Positions 453-16,380 of a stretch of 44,983 nt of DNA are shown piece after piece. A program made the position numbers and the translations under genes. Position 1 is the stretch's first letter. Each line of letters opens with the position of its first letter. Source of the DNA: Eubacterium sp. ER2 (GTDB lineage Bacteria > Bacillota > Clostridia > Lachnospirales > Lachnospiraceae); NCBI RefSeq assembly GCF_000765215.1, contig NZ_JPJE01000014.1, positions 1-44,983 on the forward strand, written 5' to 3'. The notes under the pieces were generated by a model. It was not told the origin of the DNA. It was given only the letters and a program-made list of their open reading frames with translations, and did not search any database.

Positions 453-2591
453 TTATTGTTCAATCTCTTTCATCAAAGATCTTGGCGTTTCCACTTTTGT
501 GATTTCTCCTGCATCAAAAACAAATACTTCATCACATTTCTGGATAGTCTGTAATCTGTGTGCAACAAAAATACAAGTAATGTTTTGGCAATTTTTATAT
601 ATCATATCAATAATTTCTTTTTCAGTAATAACATCTAAATTACTTGTTACTTCATCAAATATTATAATATTGGGATCCTGAAGTAAAGCTCTGGCTATTC
701 CTAACCGTTGGCGCTCACCAGCCGATAAGTTATGAGCATTTTCAGAAAGAACGGTAAATAATCCATCTTCTTTCTTATTAATGATTTCTTCCAATTGGCA
801 ACCATGTATGATTTTTTCCAGTTTCTCTTCAGAAATACCGCTCCTTCCCAAAAGCAAATTGTCTAAAATAGTTTTAGAAAACAAAAAGATATCTTGCGGC
901 ACATATGCAATTTTTTTATGCAGAGTATCAGGGTCAATATTATTTATATTTTCACCGCAAATGGAAATACTTCCCGTTTCTAATTTACGCAAACCCAATA
1001 GTAAATTAATCAACGTTGTTTTCCCACTCCCACTTTTCCCAATAAAAGCAACTTTACTCCCCTTCGTAATGTCAATATTAATATTTTTTAATGTTTCATC
1101 AGAATAGCCATATGAAAAATATAAGTTCTTGACTTCTACATCAATATTGTTACATTTATTTTCATTAGCCTTTTTAATATTTTCTGTATTCGTTTTATAA
1201 ATAACGTCATTTAATCTTTCTATGGATACAATAAATCTCTGGATTTTATCCTGTGTGTCTATTAAACTTCTGACTGGAATTAACATATTCTGTGCTAATA
1301 TTAACACCACCAGTAGTTCTCCAATTGTTATAAATCCTTTCAAATTAAAGGAAAACCCACACCAAAATATAACTATAATTCCGATAGCTTCTATCGATAA
1401 AGAGAGTCCCTGATTAAAAAATGAAATTTTTGAATTCTTATAATTAGAATTTATCAATTTTTTAATTCTTTTATTATTCTCTTGTTTAATGAAATTTTCT
1501 GCAACAAATGACTTTATAGTAGTAAATCCATCAATGGTTTCCTTAAAGACAGATAGTATATTTCCATGATTTTGCGCAATTTCTCGATTAGTACCATAAA
1601 ATATTTTATTAAAACATAATACCTCGATAATATAAACGATAATAATAATGCACGTAATCATAAATAATGGAGGACTTTTTGTTAATATAATAATCCCAGA
1701 GGTTATAGCAGTAACTAAATCCAAAATAATATTAATAATTGTTGAACATAGAGTTTCTTTGATATGTTCAATATCGTTTAATCTCTCAAGCACTTCACCA
1801 TTTGTTCGGCTGTCAAAATAGGACAACGGTACTTTGAGTAGGTTTTCCTGAAAATTTTCAAGAAAATCCTTTTCTATATTGCGAGAAAGCATGGCTACGA
1901 TAATACTCCTGAAAAGGTAAATCCCCAACCTTAAGATATAAAGACCTATTATGATAGCGAAAATCGTATTCACTTCCCTCATTAATTCATAATTCGGGTG
2001 CATCATAAAATGATCAATAATGTGTTGGAAAATGAGGGTACTTACTATTGTAATTCCCGCAATTAACAAAGAGGTTCCCAGAATAGTAAAAAATTCTTTT
2101 CTATATTTTTTAAATAATAAGGAATAATTTTGATAAGCTCCTTTTTTTAAATTTTCTTTTTTGAAAAGAGGCGTCAATTGAAAAGCAATAAAATAGCCTG
2201 TCCAGATCTTTGCAAATTCGTCCAATTTTATTTTTCTGTTTCCTTCATCTGGATCAAAAAGCCATACTGATTTTGTGCTTATCTTTTTTACGACCATAAA
2301 ATGATAAAGATCATCTTTTATGGTATGCACTATAAATGGAACTGCTATTTCCTTTGTCTCGTTTACATTAGAAAGTAAATCTTCGATTTCTCCTTGATAA
2401 GCGTCCGCTGTCATTCCAAGTACCTCGGCAGCTTTGCAAATTCCATAGATACTAGATCCATTCATATTCACCTTTTCTAACTCTCGAATGTAAGATAATG
2501 GAACGTTTAATCCATAAAAATTGCAGATTGTAGCCAAGCATGCGACTCCACAATCCCTTGTATCATGTTGATAGACTCCACGAAACCGCAT
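453..2591 (-). CDS. Peptidase-containing ABC exporter (C39 protease, PCAT type)
   Basis: A 712-residue bacteriocin-type exporter that cuts a double-glycine leader and pumps the peptide out of the cell. Residues 1-130 are a C39 peptidase domain with oxyanion Gln8, catalytic Cys14 (RDCGVAC), His97 and Asp113. Residues 160-450 hold the membrane domain with about six hydrophobic segments. The C-terminal ATPase has Walker A GKSGSGKT (518-525), the signature LSAGE (622-626) and Walker B IIIFDE (643-648). Length and domain order are normal for the family and all catalytic residues are present. It starts 4 bases after the ATPase gene at 2596-3273, so it is the last main gene of the cassette led by the GG-leader peptide at 5921-6061, its obvious substrate. 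Base composition is clearly AT-richer than in the transfer genes, which suggests separate acquisition. Confidence 0.95.
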   Translation of the reverse strand: MRFRGVYQHDTRDCGVACLATICNFYGLNVPLSYIRELEKVNMNGSSIYGICKAAEVLGMTADAYQGEIEDLLSNVNETKEIAVPFIVHTIKDDLYHFMVVKKISTKSVWLFDPDEGNRKIKLDEFAKIWTGYFIAFQLTPLFKKENLKKGAYQNYSLLFKKYRKEFFTILGTSLLIAGITIVSTLIFQHIIDHFMMHPNYELMREVNTIFAIIIGLYILRLGIYLFRSIIVAMLSRNIEKDFLENFQENLLKVPLSYFDSRTNGEVLERLNDIEHIKETLCSTIINIILDLVTAITSGIIILTKSPPLFMITCIIIIVYIIEVLCFNKIFYGTNREIAQNHGNILSVFKETIDGFTTIKSFVAENFIKQENNKRIKKLINSNYKNSKISFFNQGLSLSIEAIGIIVIFWCGFSFNLKGFITIGELLVVLILAQNMLIPVRSLIDTQDKIQRFIVSIERLNDVIYKTNTENIKKANENKCNNIDVEVKNLYFSYGYSDETLKNINIDITKGSKVAFIGKSGSGKTTLINLLLGLRKLETGSISICGENINNIDPDTLHKKIAYVPQDIFLFSKTILDNLLLGRSGISEEKLEKIIHGCQLEEIINKKEDGLFTVLSENAHNLSAGERQRLGIARALLQDPNIIIFDEVTSNLDVITEKEIIDMIYKNCQNITCIFVAHRLQTIQKCDEVFVFDAGEITKVETPRSLMKEIEQ

Positions 2592-2595
2592 TTTC

Positions 2596-3273
2596 TCACC
2601 GCCTTATATCTTCTATGATCTTCCCGTCTTCAATTCGAATAGTCCGGCTGCTGTTTCCGGCAATCTTCTCGTCATGGGTGATCAGCAAAATAGTTTGTTT
2701 GTAGACCTCGTTTAATTCTTTAAAAAGATTGATAATTTCCAAACTGTTTTTCTGGTCCAGATTTCCAGTAGGTTCGTCAGCCAGAATCAACTGGGGCTGG
2801 CTGATCAGCGCCCGCCCGATCGCCACCCTCTGCTGCTGGCCTCCCGACAGTTCGTTTGGCAGATGGTCGGCCCTCTTTTCCAGTCCAAGTATCTCCAACA
2901 GCTTCTGGAGCTCCTCCTGATCCACCTTCTTATGATCCAAAAGCACGGGAAGGCTGATGTTTTCTTTTACATCCAGCACGGGAATGAGATTATAAAATTG
3001 ATAAATCTGTCCAATCTCCCGTCTGCGGAATACGGTCAGATCCCGGTTTTTCATTTTGTAAATGGATTGCCCGCCTATAAAGACCTGCCCGTGTGTCGGT
3101 CTGTCCACGCCGCCGACCAGATGGAGCAGCGTGGACTTCCCGGATCCGGATGGGCCCAGGATCGTAACAAATTCTCCCTTTTCCACGGAAAAGGATACAT
3201 GGTCTAATGCGATGACTTTATTTTCTCCAAAGCCATATTCTTTTGTCAGCTCTTCTGTCCTTAACACTTCCAT
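2596..3273 (-). CDS. ABC transporter ATPase, MacB/LolD-like
   Basis: A 225-residue ATPase of the family that powers FtsX-type permeases. It shows Walker A GPSGSGKS, a Q-loop, the signature [15 protein letters not shown], Walker [13 protein letters not shown] and the switch histidine in [10 protein letters not shown] chose the ATG at 3273, preceded by a GGGGGC ribosome binding site. The in-frame ATG at 3300 would overlap the end of the permease gene and has no good site. It follows the permease gene 3287-5863 after 13 bases and precedes the C39 exporter, so the two halves form one transporter. In peptide cassettes such a pair gives either self-protection (expelling the peptide from the membrane) or a second export step; the sequence does not decide between them. 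Confidence 0.93.
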
Positions 3274-3286
3274 CTTATCTGCCCCC

Positions 3287-5863
3287 TTACATATTTTCAT
3301 CCCGGATGGAGTCTATAATATTTAAATTTTTCAGCTGGGACATGGCACAAACAACAGGTACGACAATGATTAGGATTGCAAACACGATCTGTACAGGAAC
3401 CATATCCCACGGCATTTCCCAGCGGAGCGCATAATTTACTTTAAAACTAAGGTATACCTGATACAGGAGAAGAAAGCTTAGTGGTATGCCTGCTAGGCAA
3501 CCGCTCACCCCATATATGGCGGCCTCGAAAAGCAGCATATTTCTTAAAGAAGCCGGAGACATTCCTATGGACTGATAAGCCGAAAACTCCTTCCTTCGCA
3601 TCCTCATAGATGTAGAAATATTCTGGAAAATATTGGTTAAAGACAGTATTGTGATCAACAATACCAGCCCATATCCCAGGATCAGCTGGAAGAATTTTTC
3701 CGAATGGAAGTACTGGTTCCTCTGCCAAAGCAGCCGGCTGTTAAAAACAAAGGTGTCATTTTCCGGCAATACCCTTCCGTCCGCAAGCATGTAATTATAA
3801 TCCGCCGCTTCTCCCTGCGTAAGCCCTACATCCTCGGCAATTTTTTTGATTTTTTCTCCTATCCGCTTCTCCTTTTCCATTTGAGAAGATGACTCTGCTC
3901 CGTACAGTAGTTGGCTTAATAAGCCGCTCTCATCGTTTTTTCTCGACCCTTTTATTTCGAATTTTACATAAGTTGCAATGCTTTTGCTTTCATAATTAGA
4001 AGCATACGTATCCGTTGGATGTTCTCCATAAGTCTCATGATAAGCAGGGTCCTTCAGCAGCTTTTTAAAATCACTCATAGACATATAAATGTGACAAATA
4101 CCCAGCGTTCTTTCCTGATAGCCATCTATATTATCTTGCATACCAGAGAAATAAGGATACGGCGGGGGGGCCTGCGTGGTCCCTATTACCGTAAAATTTC
4201 CCTGTCTTATTTCATCAAGTTCGCTATACCATTTTCCTATCGTATAGGCTTCCATATCCCCATATCTGCTGTAATAAAAGGATAAGCTATCTCCCGGACG
4301 CAAATCCAGGATGCTCCGCTGATCCACGCCCTGGGGAGTCAGGACCTCTTCATAATCTTCTATCAGCACGGAGTAAGCCCCTCCCGTCTGACGCGGGATC
4401 TGACAGCCCGCCGCTTCCACATAATTCTGGAACGTATTGTCATCTAACCCAACAATCACCGTACGCAGATAATATCCCTCTATCCATTTTCCTGAGTGCA
4501 TATCCTTCACACCCTTAATCTGTGACATTTCTTCTTCCCGTGAAAGCCCACCAAAGCCAGTTACACCCGATATCTCAAATTCCTGCAAGTCCTTTTGGAT
4601 CTGTCCGGGCTGTAATAATATCCCGCCCCAATCCAGATTTCGTTCCAGTGAAACGGAAGTGACTTCCGGGAGATCTTTTACTTCCTGATAGAATTTTTCG
4701 ATTTTATCCTGATCCATTGTATATAATTCTGCCCATAGCTGTAATTTCTCACGCCTCCGGTCATCCCTTGGGTAGTAGTCCCCGTTGATCCCCCGCATGG
4801 CAGCCGCCCCATCCAGGATTACACAAAAGCTAAGGGTAATCAGTATTCCATTGGATATATAATTTTTCCGGCGTATCCAGATGTTTTTTGCCGCCAGCAT
4901 CCCTACCGTCCCCAATATACGGTGTTTTCCGAGTAAATTCGTCCTCTGGCGGATTTTTATCCCTATGGTATAAGGGCGCACAGCCAGGTCTAATCCTGAC
5001 GCCTGGACAGCTTTCCACGCCGGAAACAGACAGGCGAAAAAGATCATGATAAATCCGAGAAGAACAAGCAGGAGTATCTCCTTTACCGTCACGGTCACTA
5101 GGAGCGTATCTTCATAAAAGAAAAGCTTCCGAAGAGCAAGGATGATGCCTTTTACCAGCAGCACCCCTGCACTAATCCCTACAGGTATGCCTGCTATCCC
5201 CTCCAGGATGCCTTCACAATAGACCACGCTTGCCTTTTGGAAGTCGGTGGCCCCAATACTGCCAAGCGTTCCCAAATACTTTAGTTTTTCAAATGTCGAG
5301 ATGGCATAGGCATTATAAATTAAAACGCTTCCCATAAGCATTACGAGAAAGAGAATTAAATTGATTAATACCCCCACGCCAAATTTCCCCACCTGGTTAA
5401 TGCCATAATATTGCAAAAGCTCCATATGATATGTAACATCGTATTTCCCGGACACCCGGTATGGCAATTCTGTCCTTTCATTTTCCGGAAGCTGTCGCAT
5501 TCCAAGCTGTTCTGCTATCTTCTGTGTAGTCGAAAAAATAAGCCAGTTCACCTTCTTCAGTTCCACTCTGGCGCACAAAGCACTTTTCCCATCATGGCTA
5601 CTGCAGTTCTCCAATTGAACATGCTTGATCTTTTTGTCCTGGCTTAACTTCAAATATTGCTCTTGATCCAGTTCGTGGAAAACGGCATGATAGCCGCCCT
5701 GCTCGTCTATAATACTGCTTCTGATTGCGCCTAACAGAGTCTGGGAGAAAAAATAGATGGCGCTCAGGACGGCCAGAGTACAGACAATTCCCAAAATCGT
5801 CGCCTTTGTGCGTTTCCTATTTTTTTTCATATACTGCCATGTCAGTTTATAAATGATATTCAT
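3287..5863 (-). CDS. FtsX/MacB-like ABC permease, 858 aa
   Basis: A large permease with two FtsX-type modules. There is one membrane segment near the N-terminus (about 20-45), a group of three (about 160-290), another near 335, a long extracytoplasmic region, and three C-terminal segments (about 725-845). The ATG at 5863 follows a GGGGGAAAAT stretch. It is the first gene after the GG-leader peptide, 57 bases downstream, with a hairpin (5881-5909) between, so transcription into the transporter genes may be only partial read-through. With the ATPase at 2596-3273 it forms a MacB-type or BceAB/LanFEG-like transporter. Known relatives expel antimicrobial peptides or act in envelope stress. A role in immunity to the cassette's own peptide is the simplest inference. 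Confidence 0.88.
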   Translation of the reverse strand: MNIIYKLTWQYMKKNRKRTKATILGIVCTLAVLSAIYFFSQTLLGAIRSSIIDEQGGYHAVFHELDQEQYLKLSQDKKIKHVQLENCSSHDGKSALCARVELKKVNWLIFSTTQKIAEQLGMRQLPENERTELPYRVSGKYDVTYHMELLQYYGINQVGKFGVGVLINLILFLVMLMGSVLIYNAYAISTFEKLKYLGTLGSIGATDFQKASVVYCEGILEGIAGIPVGISAGVLLVKGIILALRKLFFYEDTLLVTVTVKEILLLVLLGFIMIFFACLFPAWKAVQASGLDLAVRPYTIGIKIRQRTNLLGKHRILGTVGMLAAKNIWIRRKNYISNGILITLSFCVILDGAAAMRGINGDYYPRDDRRREKLQLWAELYTMDQDKIEKFYQEVKDLPEVTSVSLERNLDWGGILLQPGQIQKDLQEFEISGVTGFGGLSREEEMSQIKGVKDMHSGKWIEGYYLRTVIVGLDDNTFQNYVEAAGCQIPRQTGGAYSVLIEDYEEVLTPQGVDQRSILDLRPGDSLSFYYSRYGDMEAYTIGKWYSELDEIRQGNFTVIGTTQAPPPYPYFSGMQDNIDGYQERTLGICHIYMSMSDFKKLLKDPAYHETYGEHPTDTYASNYESKSIATYVKFEIKGSRKNDESGLLSQLLYGAESSSQMEKEKRIGEKIKKIAEDVGLTQGEAADYNYMLADGRVLPENDTFVFNSRLLWQRNQYFHSEKFFQLILGYGLVLLITILSLTNIFQNISTSMRMRRKEFSAYQSIGMSPASLRNMLLFEAAIYGVSGCLAGIPLSFLLLYQVYLSFKVNYALRWEMPWDMVPVQIVFAILIIVVPVVCAMSQLKNLNIIDSIRDENM

Positions 5864-5880: not shown

Positions 5881-5909
5881 AAGAACCATGGCCTTTAGCC
5901 ATGGTTCTT
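5881..5909 (-). terminator. Hairpin between peptide gene and transporter genes
   Basis: A perfect 12-bp stem (5881-5892 with 5898-5909) and 5-base loop lies 11 bases after the peptide gene. On the minus strand it is followed by a short T-rich tract (TTCTTTT). It probably acts as a partial terminator, giving much peptide message and less transporter message, a common arrangement in bacteriocin operons. Confidence 0.7.
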
Positions 5910-5920
5910 CAGTTCTCCAG

Positions 5921-6061
5921 TTACTGCCATGTAATATTATGCAGTCCCTTATAATGCATAACCATTACATCATGACTGTCTGTGGAAAAACTGCAATAAT
6001 CACAGTGATACTTCTTTCCACCCATTACTTTTTTGGCTTCTTTTTTAGACAGTTTTTTCAT
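5921..6061 (-). CDS. Double-glycine leader peptide with C2H2 zinc-finger-like core
   Basis: A 46-residue precursor. The 15-residue leader MKKLSKKEAKKVMGG fits the double-glycine pattern recognised by C39 exporters (Leu -12, Ser -11, Glu -8, Val -4, Gly -2, Gly -1). The 31-residue core (16-46) has Cys20, Cys23, His36 and His41 with spacing C-x2-C-x12-H-x4-H, Tyr two residues before the first Cys and Met33 at the usual hydrophobic position: the layout of a classical eukaryotic C2H2 zinc finger. The ATG at 6061 has a perfect AAGGAGG site. The longer in-frame ATG at 6127 overlaps the promoter -10 box and cannot be the start. Its own promoter (6128-6156), a terminator (5881-5909) and the downstream transporters make a complete secretion cassette. 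Export by the C39 exporter is well supported; zinc binding and biological activity are inferred. Confidence 0.85.
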   Translation of the reverse strand: MKKLSKKEAKKVMGGKKYHCDYCSFSTDSHDVMVMHYKGLHNITWQ

Positions 6062-6127
6062 AATCAGCACCTCCTTCCATACTATATTTCCATCCTGGTT
6101 ATTGTTAATATAATTGTACATCTTCAT

Positions 6128-6156
6128 ATTATATTTTTCAACAATTTTATAGTCAA
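6128..6156 (-). promoter_or_regulatory. Promoter of the GG-leader peptide gene
   Basis: On the minus strand TTGACT (6151-6156), a 17-base spacer and TATAAT (6128-6133) form a near-consensus vegetative promoter. It starts RNA near 6121, leaving about 60 bases of leader before the ATG at 6061. Confidence 0.8.
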
Positions 6157-7126: not shown

Positions 7127-7148
7127 GTGTCAGTATTAATTATGGCAT
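7127..7148. promoter_or_regulatory. 22-bp dyad, site C
   Basis: GTGTCA, two bases, ATTAAT, two bases, TGGCAT. It overlaps the stop codon of the split recombinase gene and is a direct repeat of site B, 173 bp away. Candidate recombinase res subsite, ParB site or operator. Confidence 0.5.
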
Positions 7149-7765
7149 ATATTCCTTCATATATCTTTTCAATGTAGCACGAGATATATGGGCCTCTTCA
7201 CAGACAGCCGTTTCCCATTCCGGAGTATCCTTATATGCTTCGTAAAGCTGTAAAAAAGCCTCTTTATCCAGCTTGCGGGGCCTTCCATACCGTTCCCATT
7301 CTCCCCGCTTCTTCATGGCTTCGATGCCCTCTCTCTGTCTCTTCGCCCGCTTTTCTGTTTCCCATTGTGCCACGGCAGAAAAGACCTCTATCAAGATCTG
7401 ATTGACCATCTCCATAATCAAAGAGACCATAGAGCTTTCATATTTGGATGGATCGATTAGAGTGGTGGGGATCTCCAAGATCCATATTATTATCTTTTTC
7501 TCCTGGAAATATCTCAATTCCCGCAGGATTTCATCTCGGTCCCGTCCAATCCGATCCACCTCAGTAAAGATAATAATATCTCCTTTTTTACACGGCGCTT
7601 CAACCTCACATATTCTGCACGATCAAAATTTTTTCCGGTAGCCTTGTCACAATAAATTTTTTCTAATCGCAGGCCATGCTCATCACAGTATTGTGTGATC
7701 TGGAAAATACCACGGTCAAGATGCTGGCCTTGACCGGATACTCTATGATATCCATATATTTTCAT
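7140..7765 (-). pseudogene. Serine resolvase gene split by a -1 frameshift (possibly programmed)
   Basis: The N-terminal frame (7514-7765) carries the serine recombinase catalytic start YGYHRVSGQGQ with the active Ser. The C-terminal frame (7140-7559) carries DRIGRDRDEI, the long connecting helix region and an HTH tail. Together they make a resolvase of about 208 residues. The break falls at a run of six A on the minus strand (7584-7589), in the zero-frame context A-AAA-AAG (7583-7589), the classic -1 slippery heptamer. Slipping back one base gives the conserved KKGDIIIFTEVDRIGRD exactly. So this is either a pseudogene or sequencing slip in a homopolymer, or true programmed frameshifting. It lies five bases after the SprT-like gene. 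A resolvase would serve plasmid dimer resolution. Confidence 0.8.
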
Positions 7766-15519: not shown

Positions 15520-16380
15520 ATGAAAAATATTTCAAAAAAAATCTTTGCATGTTCTATAGTGTTCGCTATGCTGCTCGGGCTTTTTTCTGCTAGTATGCCT
15601 GTACAGGCGAACGAGGATGACTGTACAAATTATGTGTCAATAAATCTTTCTACTGGAGAAGAAGAGATCATTCCTATTTCTAATACTGCAACAGAAACGG
15701 AGGCAGCGGGGTATACACCTGCCGGGGCAAAACAGCCAAGACTGATCATCGGTATTGATGACCGGATACCAGTATCTGATACCTCTTATGATCCCTATCC
15801 AAAAGTTGGTCTTATAAGAACCACCTGGAGAAATGGTGTCACTACTACCGGGACTGGCTGGATGTTCGGACCTAATGATGTGGCGACCGTTGCACACAAT
15901 CTATACAGTGCAGAAAGGGGAGGGGCTGCACAATCTATTCAGTATTATCCCGCTTATAATCCAGGACATATTCCCTATGGTGTTCTGACCGCAAGAAATA
16001 TCATCATTTGTGAGGATTTTGTTACGCAAGACGACAGCCAATATGATTATGGTGTTTTCGACTTAAACAATAATGTAGGTAATTCAACAGGCTATTTTGG
16101 CTGGAATAGCAATGTTATTCCTAATTCAGTAGTAGCATCAATAGGGTATCCTGAAGATTATCATACTCAGATGGTTCACAGCTTTGGAGATGTATACAAT
16201 GTTTACAGTAATTACTTTACACACAGTATTGACACTCTTGCAGGAGATAGCGGGGCACCTGTACTTTTCGGTAGTAGCGTCATAGGAATACATTCTGGAA
16301 GTACCAGTATCCTCAATACTGCAACCAGGATTTCCGGATCTGTAGCCAATTTACTGCAAAATAGACGGCTTGCGCCTTAA
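15520..16380 (+). CDS. Secreted V8-like (glutamyl endopeptidase-type) serine protease
   Basis: A 286-residue secreted protease with a signal peptide (about 1-30, ending near VQA-NED) and a propeptide-like stretch. The trypsin-fold triad is visible: His126 in VATVAHNLY, Asp176 in YDYGVFDL and Ser244 in LAGDSGAPV. Length and motif spacing fit the S1B V8/glutamyl endopeptidase family. The start has an AAAGGAG site and the gene is tied to the interrupted small gene before it. It could cut host or competitor proteins or mature other secreted plasmid products; the target cannot be told from sequence. A very long hairpin (16408-16457) ends the message. Confidence 0.92.
   Translation: MKNISKKIFACSIVFAMLLGLFSASMPVQANEDDCTNYVSINLSTGEEEIIPISNTATETEAAGYTPAGAKQPRLIIGIDDRIPVSDTSYDPYPKVGLIRTTWRNGVTTTGTGWMFGPNDVATVAHNLYSAERGGAAQSIQYYPAYNPGHIPYGVLTARNIIICEDFVTQDDSQYDYGVFDLNNNVGNSTGYFGWNSNVIPNSVVASIGYPEDYHTQMVHSFGDVYNVYSNYFTHSIDTLAGDSGAPVLFGSSVIGIHSGSTSILNTATRISGSVANLLQNRRLAP

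Follow-up and report, generated by a model that had tools for sequence, protein, structure and literature searches.

Typical class II bacteriocins are cationic and amphiphilic, and we take LSxxE(L)xxIxGG to be the pattern of their double-glycine leaders; among C2H2 zinc fingers, the single fingers of ZFY fold alone with zinc. In the part of the account cited here, the bacterial C2H2 protein Ros is an intracellular regulator with a 9-residue spacer and a larger, 58-residue globular domain (PMC9779718). A preview article on the IIBacFinder gut atlas reports 6,238 gut sequences (PMC12648078), a set that, going by the preview, may well contain the present peptide unnamed, and a term search of the main text of the Hungate1000 bacteriocin paper (PMC13289728) did not return the word "zinc." Within the open-licence PMC literature we found no paper on a zinc-finger bacteriocin, which does not by itself prove absence in print. 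The four-gene cassette considered here lies near one end of the window (the whole 44,983-nucleotide stretch of DNA that was analyzed), and we regard as evenly balanced the proposition that it is mobile and makes an unmodified double-glycine peptide, which would have a zinc-folded core, would probably serve as a bacteriocin, and would have an FtsX/ATPase pair as protection.

The precursor peptide gene occupies positions 5921..6061 of the minus strand (stop included) and encodes 46 amino acids, a 15-residue double-glycine leader (MKKLSKKEAKKVMGG) followed by a 31-residue C2H2-type core (KKYHCDYCSFSTDSHDVMVMHYKGLHNITWQ), with GGAGG located 8 bases before the ATG at 6061; the codons of the predicted mature core, given a cut after the Gly-Gly, span 5924..6016 on the same strand. 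Rereading the sequence bore out what the original prediction had described, namely, the 15-residue leader, the 31-residue core, the spacing C-x2-C-x12-H-x4-H, and a Tyr two residues before the first Cys. The leader LSKKEAKKVMGG fits the double-glycine pattern in all three known members (in Merdimonas, Ile replaces Leu), and a longer in-frame start at 6127 is disfavored, relative to that at 6061, by the leader, the Shine-Dalgarno sequence, and conservation. Bacteriocin precursor models in Pfam and NCBIfam gave no match above cut-off for the precursor, the lanthipeptide-leader model reaching an E value of 0.02 (15 versus 27 bits).

The promoter that had been proposed for this gene corresponds to two overlapping sigma-70-like sites upstream of it (6113..6156, minus strand), TTGACT-17-TATAAT at 6156-6128 with 11 of 12 consensus matches and TTGAAA-17-TACAAT at 6141-6113 with 10 of 12; both are consensus matches only, and 13 promoter-like sites of such kind occur in 701 AT-rich bases, versus 3.3 expected. 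By eye, ATTGTT and AACAAT (AACAAA in Merdimonas) are present around the promoter region in all three members (window 6080-6150), forming a possible operator. The hairpin that had been noted after the gene is likewise present, between the peptide and permease genes (5881..5909, minus strand), and recurs in all three members; it may be an attenuator or a terminator, its T run is short, and it is absent from the output of the terminator scan.

A two-row alignment scan of 84,980 species genomes (the window's own genome possibly having been left out) yielded two relatives of the peptide, in Merdimonas faecis BR31 and Lachnoclostridium sp. An118. The members known are only these two and the window copy, and they were found with short exact patterns, by which distant members would be missed. 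Identity to the window peptide is 82% over 45 residues in An118 and about 76-78% in Merdimonas. In the genus, the peptide is present in 2 of 11 genomes, those of the window and of what is taken to be An118, with a third giving a weak chance match only (E = 0.29). The search for homologues that had been suggested as a check of the prediction thus returned members that, without exception (3 of 3), keep both Cys and both His.

Other searches added no member. Among 397 genomes of the family (E ≤ 0.1), 16 matched besides that of the window; all 17 matches were aligned and none keeps the leader together with both Cys and both His: they are pieces of longer frames, frames interrupted by stops, or chance matches. 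Of the 295 genomes of the order (E ≤ 0.05), 21 matched besides that of the window, and none of the six inspected (L033-L036, L038, and L042) is a member: by eye, L033-L035 are HNH-like Cys/His proteins, and the other three are frames with stops or chance, L036 having GVKYQCDYCSYSSNS in a 26-residue frame without a leader. A single match besides the window's, containing three stops, came from 391 genomes of the class (E ≤ 0.001). The phage collection held no relative of the peptide (one phage row at an E value of 10), and the viral contigs held none by peptide alignments, DNA pattern, or permease or exporter scans; the 12 viral-contig matches to the DNA pattern were all translated, and none is a leader-plus-finger peptide. 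One viral contig has a frame (L065:289-324) with a C2H2-like stretch (ECAYCEF...HVERAH) and no evident leader.

The cassette of Merdimonas faecis is complete, with four genes in the same order and open frames, and is 76.6% identical to that of the window in DNA over 5,668 columns; amino-acid identities between the two are 76% for the peptide, 76% for the permease, 88% for the ATPase, and 79% for the exporter. By the Nei-Gojobori method, dN/dS of the peptide is 0.182/0.926 between the window and Merdimonas, 0.113/0.299 between the window and An118, and 0.204/1.668 between An118 and Merdimonas. For the window and Merdimonas, the ratio is approximately 0.1 for the exporter and 0.2 for the peptide, the permease having reached saturation under this method and the ATPase giving no defined value. 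Taken together, the conservation of the cassette and the dN/dS of the peptide indicate that the peptide gene is very probably translated and under selection. In An118, the peptide, permease, and ATPase frames are intact and the exporter frame is broken (L025:12608-13273): it diverges after about 155 residues and terminates at residue 192, with unrelated DNA beyond, and the alignment to the window DNA runs out near codon 221. Between the window and An118 (L025), the mid-permease and ATPase region (window positions 2600-5600) is 98-100% identical; the peptide end is about 88-91% identical and the exporter about 94-97%, a distribution that we read as a recombination mosaic. A fading or nonfunctional cassette carried along by a mobile element would account for the broken exporter of An118 and for there being three members found, but we consider this quite improbable, since Merdimonas, at about 77% DNA identity, retains the peptide and the other three genes along with the ribosome-binding site and the hairpin, with the dN/dS ratios just given for peptide and exporter.

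The preferred reading, that of a peptide exported with a zinc-folded core, leads to the sequence of that core. The classical pattern C-x2-4-C-x12-H-x3-5-H is satisfied by all three members, in which Y18, C20, C23, F25, M33, H36, and H41 are invariant and the nonligand residues His 19 and His 30 vary. With 15 variable columns out of 46 (31 invariant), chance alone would leave four preselected columns without variation about 0.19 of the time; ligand invariance taken alone is modest evidence, and resemblance to genuine fingers carries more weight. Searched against PDB sequences, a profile built from the three cores produced 13 distinct matches at E values of ≤1, every one a zinc-finger protein (of the C2H2 kind by name). 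The best match is 1klr (ZFY; E = 0.0076), in which KTYQCQYCEF.. aligns against KkYkCqYCSF.. and F25 falls on the Phe of the ZFY finger. The best-matching stretches end between core residues 12 and 22, always short of the second His, so the profile search is better evidence for the Cys half than for the His half. In the single-sequence PDB search, ZHX1 ranked at the top (E = 8.4e-4 as the sum of two fingers, the better one alone reaching 0.21), and a lone ZFAT finger (2rsh; E = 0.0063) aligned over residues 14-42, covering both His; 4 of the 36 rows up to an E value of 10 are not named finger or transcription-factor proteins (FKBP2 and three neuraminidase entries).

The Pfam model zf-C2H2_ZNF462_11 matches all three members, the window copy best (E = 6.3e-5), and Pfam C2H2 scores lie under the curated cut-off, again with the window copy best (23.2 versus 27 bits). 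Ten shuffled controls were scored, half of them with the four ligands left in place: one gave a match to a C2H2 model (E = 0.019) and a different one to a RING-type zinc domain (E = 0.042). The C2H2-like core of the original prediction holds up, in that its similarity to true C2H2 fingers exceeds the level of the ten shuffles. The combination of a double-glycine leader with a C2H2 pattern behind it is found a single time in the window, not at all in 200 mononucleotide shuffles of the window, and not at all in 62 loci set apart as nonfamily (315,435 bases, some overlapping). The bare C-x2-C-x12-H-x3-5-H pattern turned up 19 times in the 200 shuffles and 3 times in the 62 nonfamily loci, and because it recurs in shuffles, Cys/His spacing alone is weak and the case rests on conservation and the operon.

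These data bear directly on the possibility that the Cys and His residues hold no zinc in life, the peptide being a bacteriocin with a C20-C23 or an intermolecular disulfide and its C2H2 look being due to convergence. Extracellular peptides often carry disulfides, the C2H2 model scores are modest, the PDB profile matches fall mainly over the Cys half, and one of the ten shuffled peptides touched the C2H2 model as well; yet the ligand spacing comes together with Tyr and Phe at Cys-2 and Cys+2, respectively, and with a hydrophobic side chain at His-3, and all 13 profile matches at E values of ≤1 are finger proteins of the C2H2 type. Moreover, the two ligand His residues would be without a role in a disulfide-linked peptide and are nevertheless invariant in all three members, whereas the two other His residues vary. 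We consider the disulfide account unlikely, and a core that folds around one zinc likely.

The core is hydrophilic in all three members (GRAVY, -0.73, -0.92, and -0.56) and near neutral in charge in two of the three, the window copy having 3 K/R and 3 D/E and, hence, no surplus; with such a core, a receptor or cell-wall target is expected rather than simple membrane piercing. At what we take to be the DNA-contact helix positions of TFIIIA-type fingers, counted back from the first ligand His, the residues are Ser, Asp, Val, and Met. The suggestion in the original prediction that the peptide might bind nucleic acid found no support in these contact residues, in the lack of a charge surplus, or in the presence of a single finger, and DNA binding by the core appears unlikely. 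If the target were nucleic acid or zinc-finger partners in the host, the resemblance of the core to the animal fingers of ZFY, ZHX1, and ZFAT would count in favor; this account is opposed by the same single finger, contact positions without basic residues, and balanced charge, and because we know of no route by which the peptide would enter host cells, we give it very little credence.

Turning to export of the zinc-folded peptide that we favor, the C39 peptidase-containing ABC exporter is encoded at 453..2591 (minus strand; 712 amino acids) and comprises C39, ABC-membrane, and ABC-ATPase domains (Pfam C39, E = 3.1e-36). Its catalytic residues are present: C14, H97, and D113, which had been listed as intact, are confirmed, and Q8 is also in place. 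The model closest to the protein is TIGR01193, for bacteriocin exporters (479 bits versus a cut-off of 524), and the protein is the sole C39 match of more than 100 bits in the genome, the second match, of 24 bits, lying in a 309-residue frame. An exporter with the catalytic residues adjoins the peptide in the window and in Merdimonas, and An118 has the broken frame. Cleavage of the precursor after the Gly-Gly by the C39 domain, with release of the 31-residue core, is a step that we hold to be highly likely.

In the 397 genomes of the family, the exporter has 35 nonself matches at E values of ≤1e-90, and 17 such loci were examined with their flanks. A candidate double-glycine peptide, for which the motif and Shine-Dalgarno-like bases were required at any position in the retrieved sequence, is found in 13 of the 17, and many of these peptides look like ordinary hydrophobic, Gly-rich bacteriocin cores; at none of the 17 loci is there a double-glycine candidate with a C-C-H-H arrangement. 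Beside a related C39 exporter in genome G189 is a double-glycine peptide (L109:9194-9364, minus strand) with the core YQC-x4-H-x14-H-x6-H, which, on its Cys and His content, could be a second metal-binding export peptide; it has no relative in 60 other genomes or plasmids and no Pfam match.

The MacB-like transporter that had been reported beside the peptide is present as an FtsX/MacB-type ABC permease at 3287..5863 (minus strand; 858 amino acids) and its partner, a LolD-type ABC ATPase, at 2596..3300 (minus strand; 234 amino acids). In the permease, 8 hydrophobic membrane segments and two outer domains are predicted, with one short and one long outer stretch, and the protein is a probable immunity pump. 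The ATPase matches TIGR03608, a model for lactococcin-972-type bacteriocin ABC proteins, with 186 versus 255 bits, and the pair scores below the curated cut-offs of both this model and those of the MacB/LolCDE type. A relative of the pair in one genome (G007) is 51% identical over its full length, with no peptide or C39 exporter in view and no double-glycine peptide upstream of the pair by script or by eye. Another genome (G326) has a relative of the permease (37% identity over 350 residues of a 515-amino-acid permease), again with no peptide or C39 exporter in view; this pair follows an ECF-type sigma factor and a protein of the zf-HC2 kind, that is, an ECF sigma/anti-sigma pair. Resistance pumps are often arranged behind sigma/anti-sigma pairs, without peptide or exporter. 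Because relatives of the pair occur without peptide or exporter, and because An118 keeps the pair alongside a broken exporter, as a strain might that is still protected after losing export, immunity is the preferred role for the FtsX/ATPase pair and is probably its function. None of the five proteins scanned matched an immunity-protein family or an antimicrobial homologue.

Two other proposals hinge on this pair. In the first, the peptide is a double-glycine pheromone, an exported, zinc-folded signal whose sensor is the FtsX/ATPase pair or a receptor located elsewhere. The core is small and soluble, a relative of the pair adjoins the ECF sigma/anti-sigma pair, and FtsX-type ABC pairs can act as sensors (Bce-type); set against this, the four cassette genes are contiguous in two complete copies and include no kinase or regulator, and we judge signaling to be improbable. 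In the second, the peptide is a secreted zinc scavenger (zincophore) that feeds neighbors with zinc or starves them of it. C2H2 sites are capable of very tight zinc binding; against scavenging, making 31 residues for each metal ion carried is expensive, the four genes include no zinc importer or Zur-type regulator, and, to our knowledge, FtsX/LolD pairs are not metal importers, so that we rate scavenging as very unlikely. Antagonism, with the FtsX/ATPase pair as protection, is the role toward which we lean, if only slightly.

Elsewhere in the window (8946-38105) are encoded a Rep3 initiator, ParA, ParB, a MobL relaxase, a type IV secretion system coupling protein, an M23/glucosaminidase lytic protein, and an ArdC-like protein. 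Given this conjugative, plasmid-like backbone, a conjugative plasmid or element probably carries the cassette; among the plasmids searched, none matched the peptide, and none matched the permease at 1e-30. A serine resolvase in two overlapping frames adjoins the cassette (window 7140-7765), and in An118 the C-terminal portion of this resolvase recurs upstream of the cassette. The same element encodes a protein with a trypsin-like peptidase domain (PF13365) and a signal-like N terminus (window 15520-16380). Both complete cassettes, those of the window and Merdimonas, are near a contig end, and further downstream genes could be missing.

We propose that the system would work as follows. The C39 domain of the neighboring exporter would cut the precursor after the Gly-Gly, and the exporter would release the 31-residue peptide, which, judging from its sequence, would then probably adopt the beta-beta-alpha fold of a single C2H2 finger, either outside the cell or while still within the exporter cavity. 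One zinc ion would be bound by C20, C23, H36, and H41 over a small hydrophobic core of Y18, F25, and M33, the metal standing in for the disulfides of other small bacteriocins, an arrangement that would suit the anaerobic, reducing gut. The peptide would then most likely act as a narrow-range bacteriocin on related bacteria via a surface receptor, and not as a simple membrane-piercing helix, with the FtsX/ATPase pair removing it from, or otherwise protecting, the producer.

Should the core bind zinc, this bacterial export peptide would consist entirely of one eukaryote-type C2H2 finger and would represent an uncommon type of bacterial antimicrobial, folded around a metal. It would offer a metal-held alternative to disulfide and thioether links for small secreted peptides in anaerobes, would tie peptide warfare to the gut zinc supply, and would bear on the question of whether C2H2 folds originate repeatedly; the 31-residue core would be an easily synthesized test object. 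Going further, we advance, as a tentative and rather doubtful extension, a class of zinc-finger bacteriocins in which zinc replaces disulfides in a peptide secreted by anaerobes, activity follows free gut zinc, and the finger arose, perhaps, by convergence on, or capture of, the animal-type C2H2.

Among the described systems closest to the cassette are class II double-glycine bacteriocins, with which it shares a double-glycine leader, an adjacent, dedicated C39 exporter, a short core, and carriage on a mobile element; the cassette genes include no modification enzyme, the contigs ending beside the exporter gene. It departs from them in its core, which is C2H2-finger-like and hydrophilic, in contrast to the typical cationic, amphiphilic bacteriocin, and in having a precursor to which the models do not match above cut-off. 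The FtsX/ATPase pair resembles ABC systems of the MacB/LolCDE type in its 8 predicted membrane segments, FtsX domains, and LolD-like ATPase, but differs from them in scoring below the curated cut-offs and in being joined to a C39 exporter and a peptide.

The core has two points of reference. With eukaryotic C2H2 fingers (the ZFY/ZNF462/ZHX type), it has in common the spacing C-x2-C-x12-H-x4-H, a Tyr at Cys-2, an aromatic residue at Cys+2, and a hydrophobic residue at His-3, whereas here a lone finger stands behind an export leader in a bacterium, with no neighboring fingers, linker, or DNA-contact pattern. With Ros/MucR, it would share a bacterial C2H2 zinc site (predicted here), but its spacer is 12 residues and its 31-residue core follows an export leader, versus the 9-residue spacer and larger domain of Ros, and an origin from Ros/MucR is disfavored by the spacing (12 versus 9; PMC9779718). 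In kind, then, the system is already known, as a class II double-glycine, C39-exported, bacteriocin-like one; the C2H2 core is its new part.
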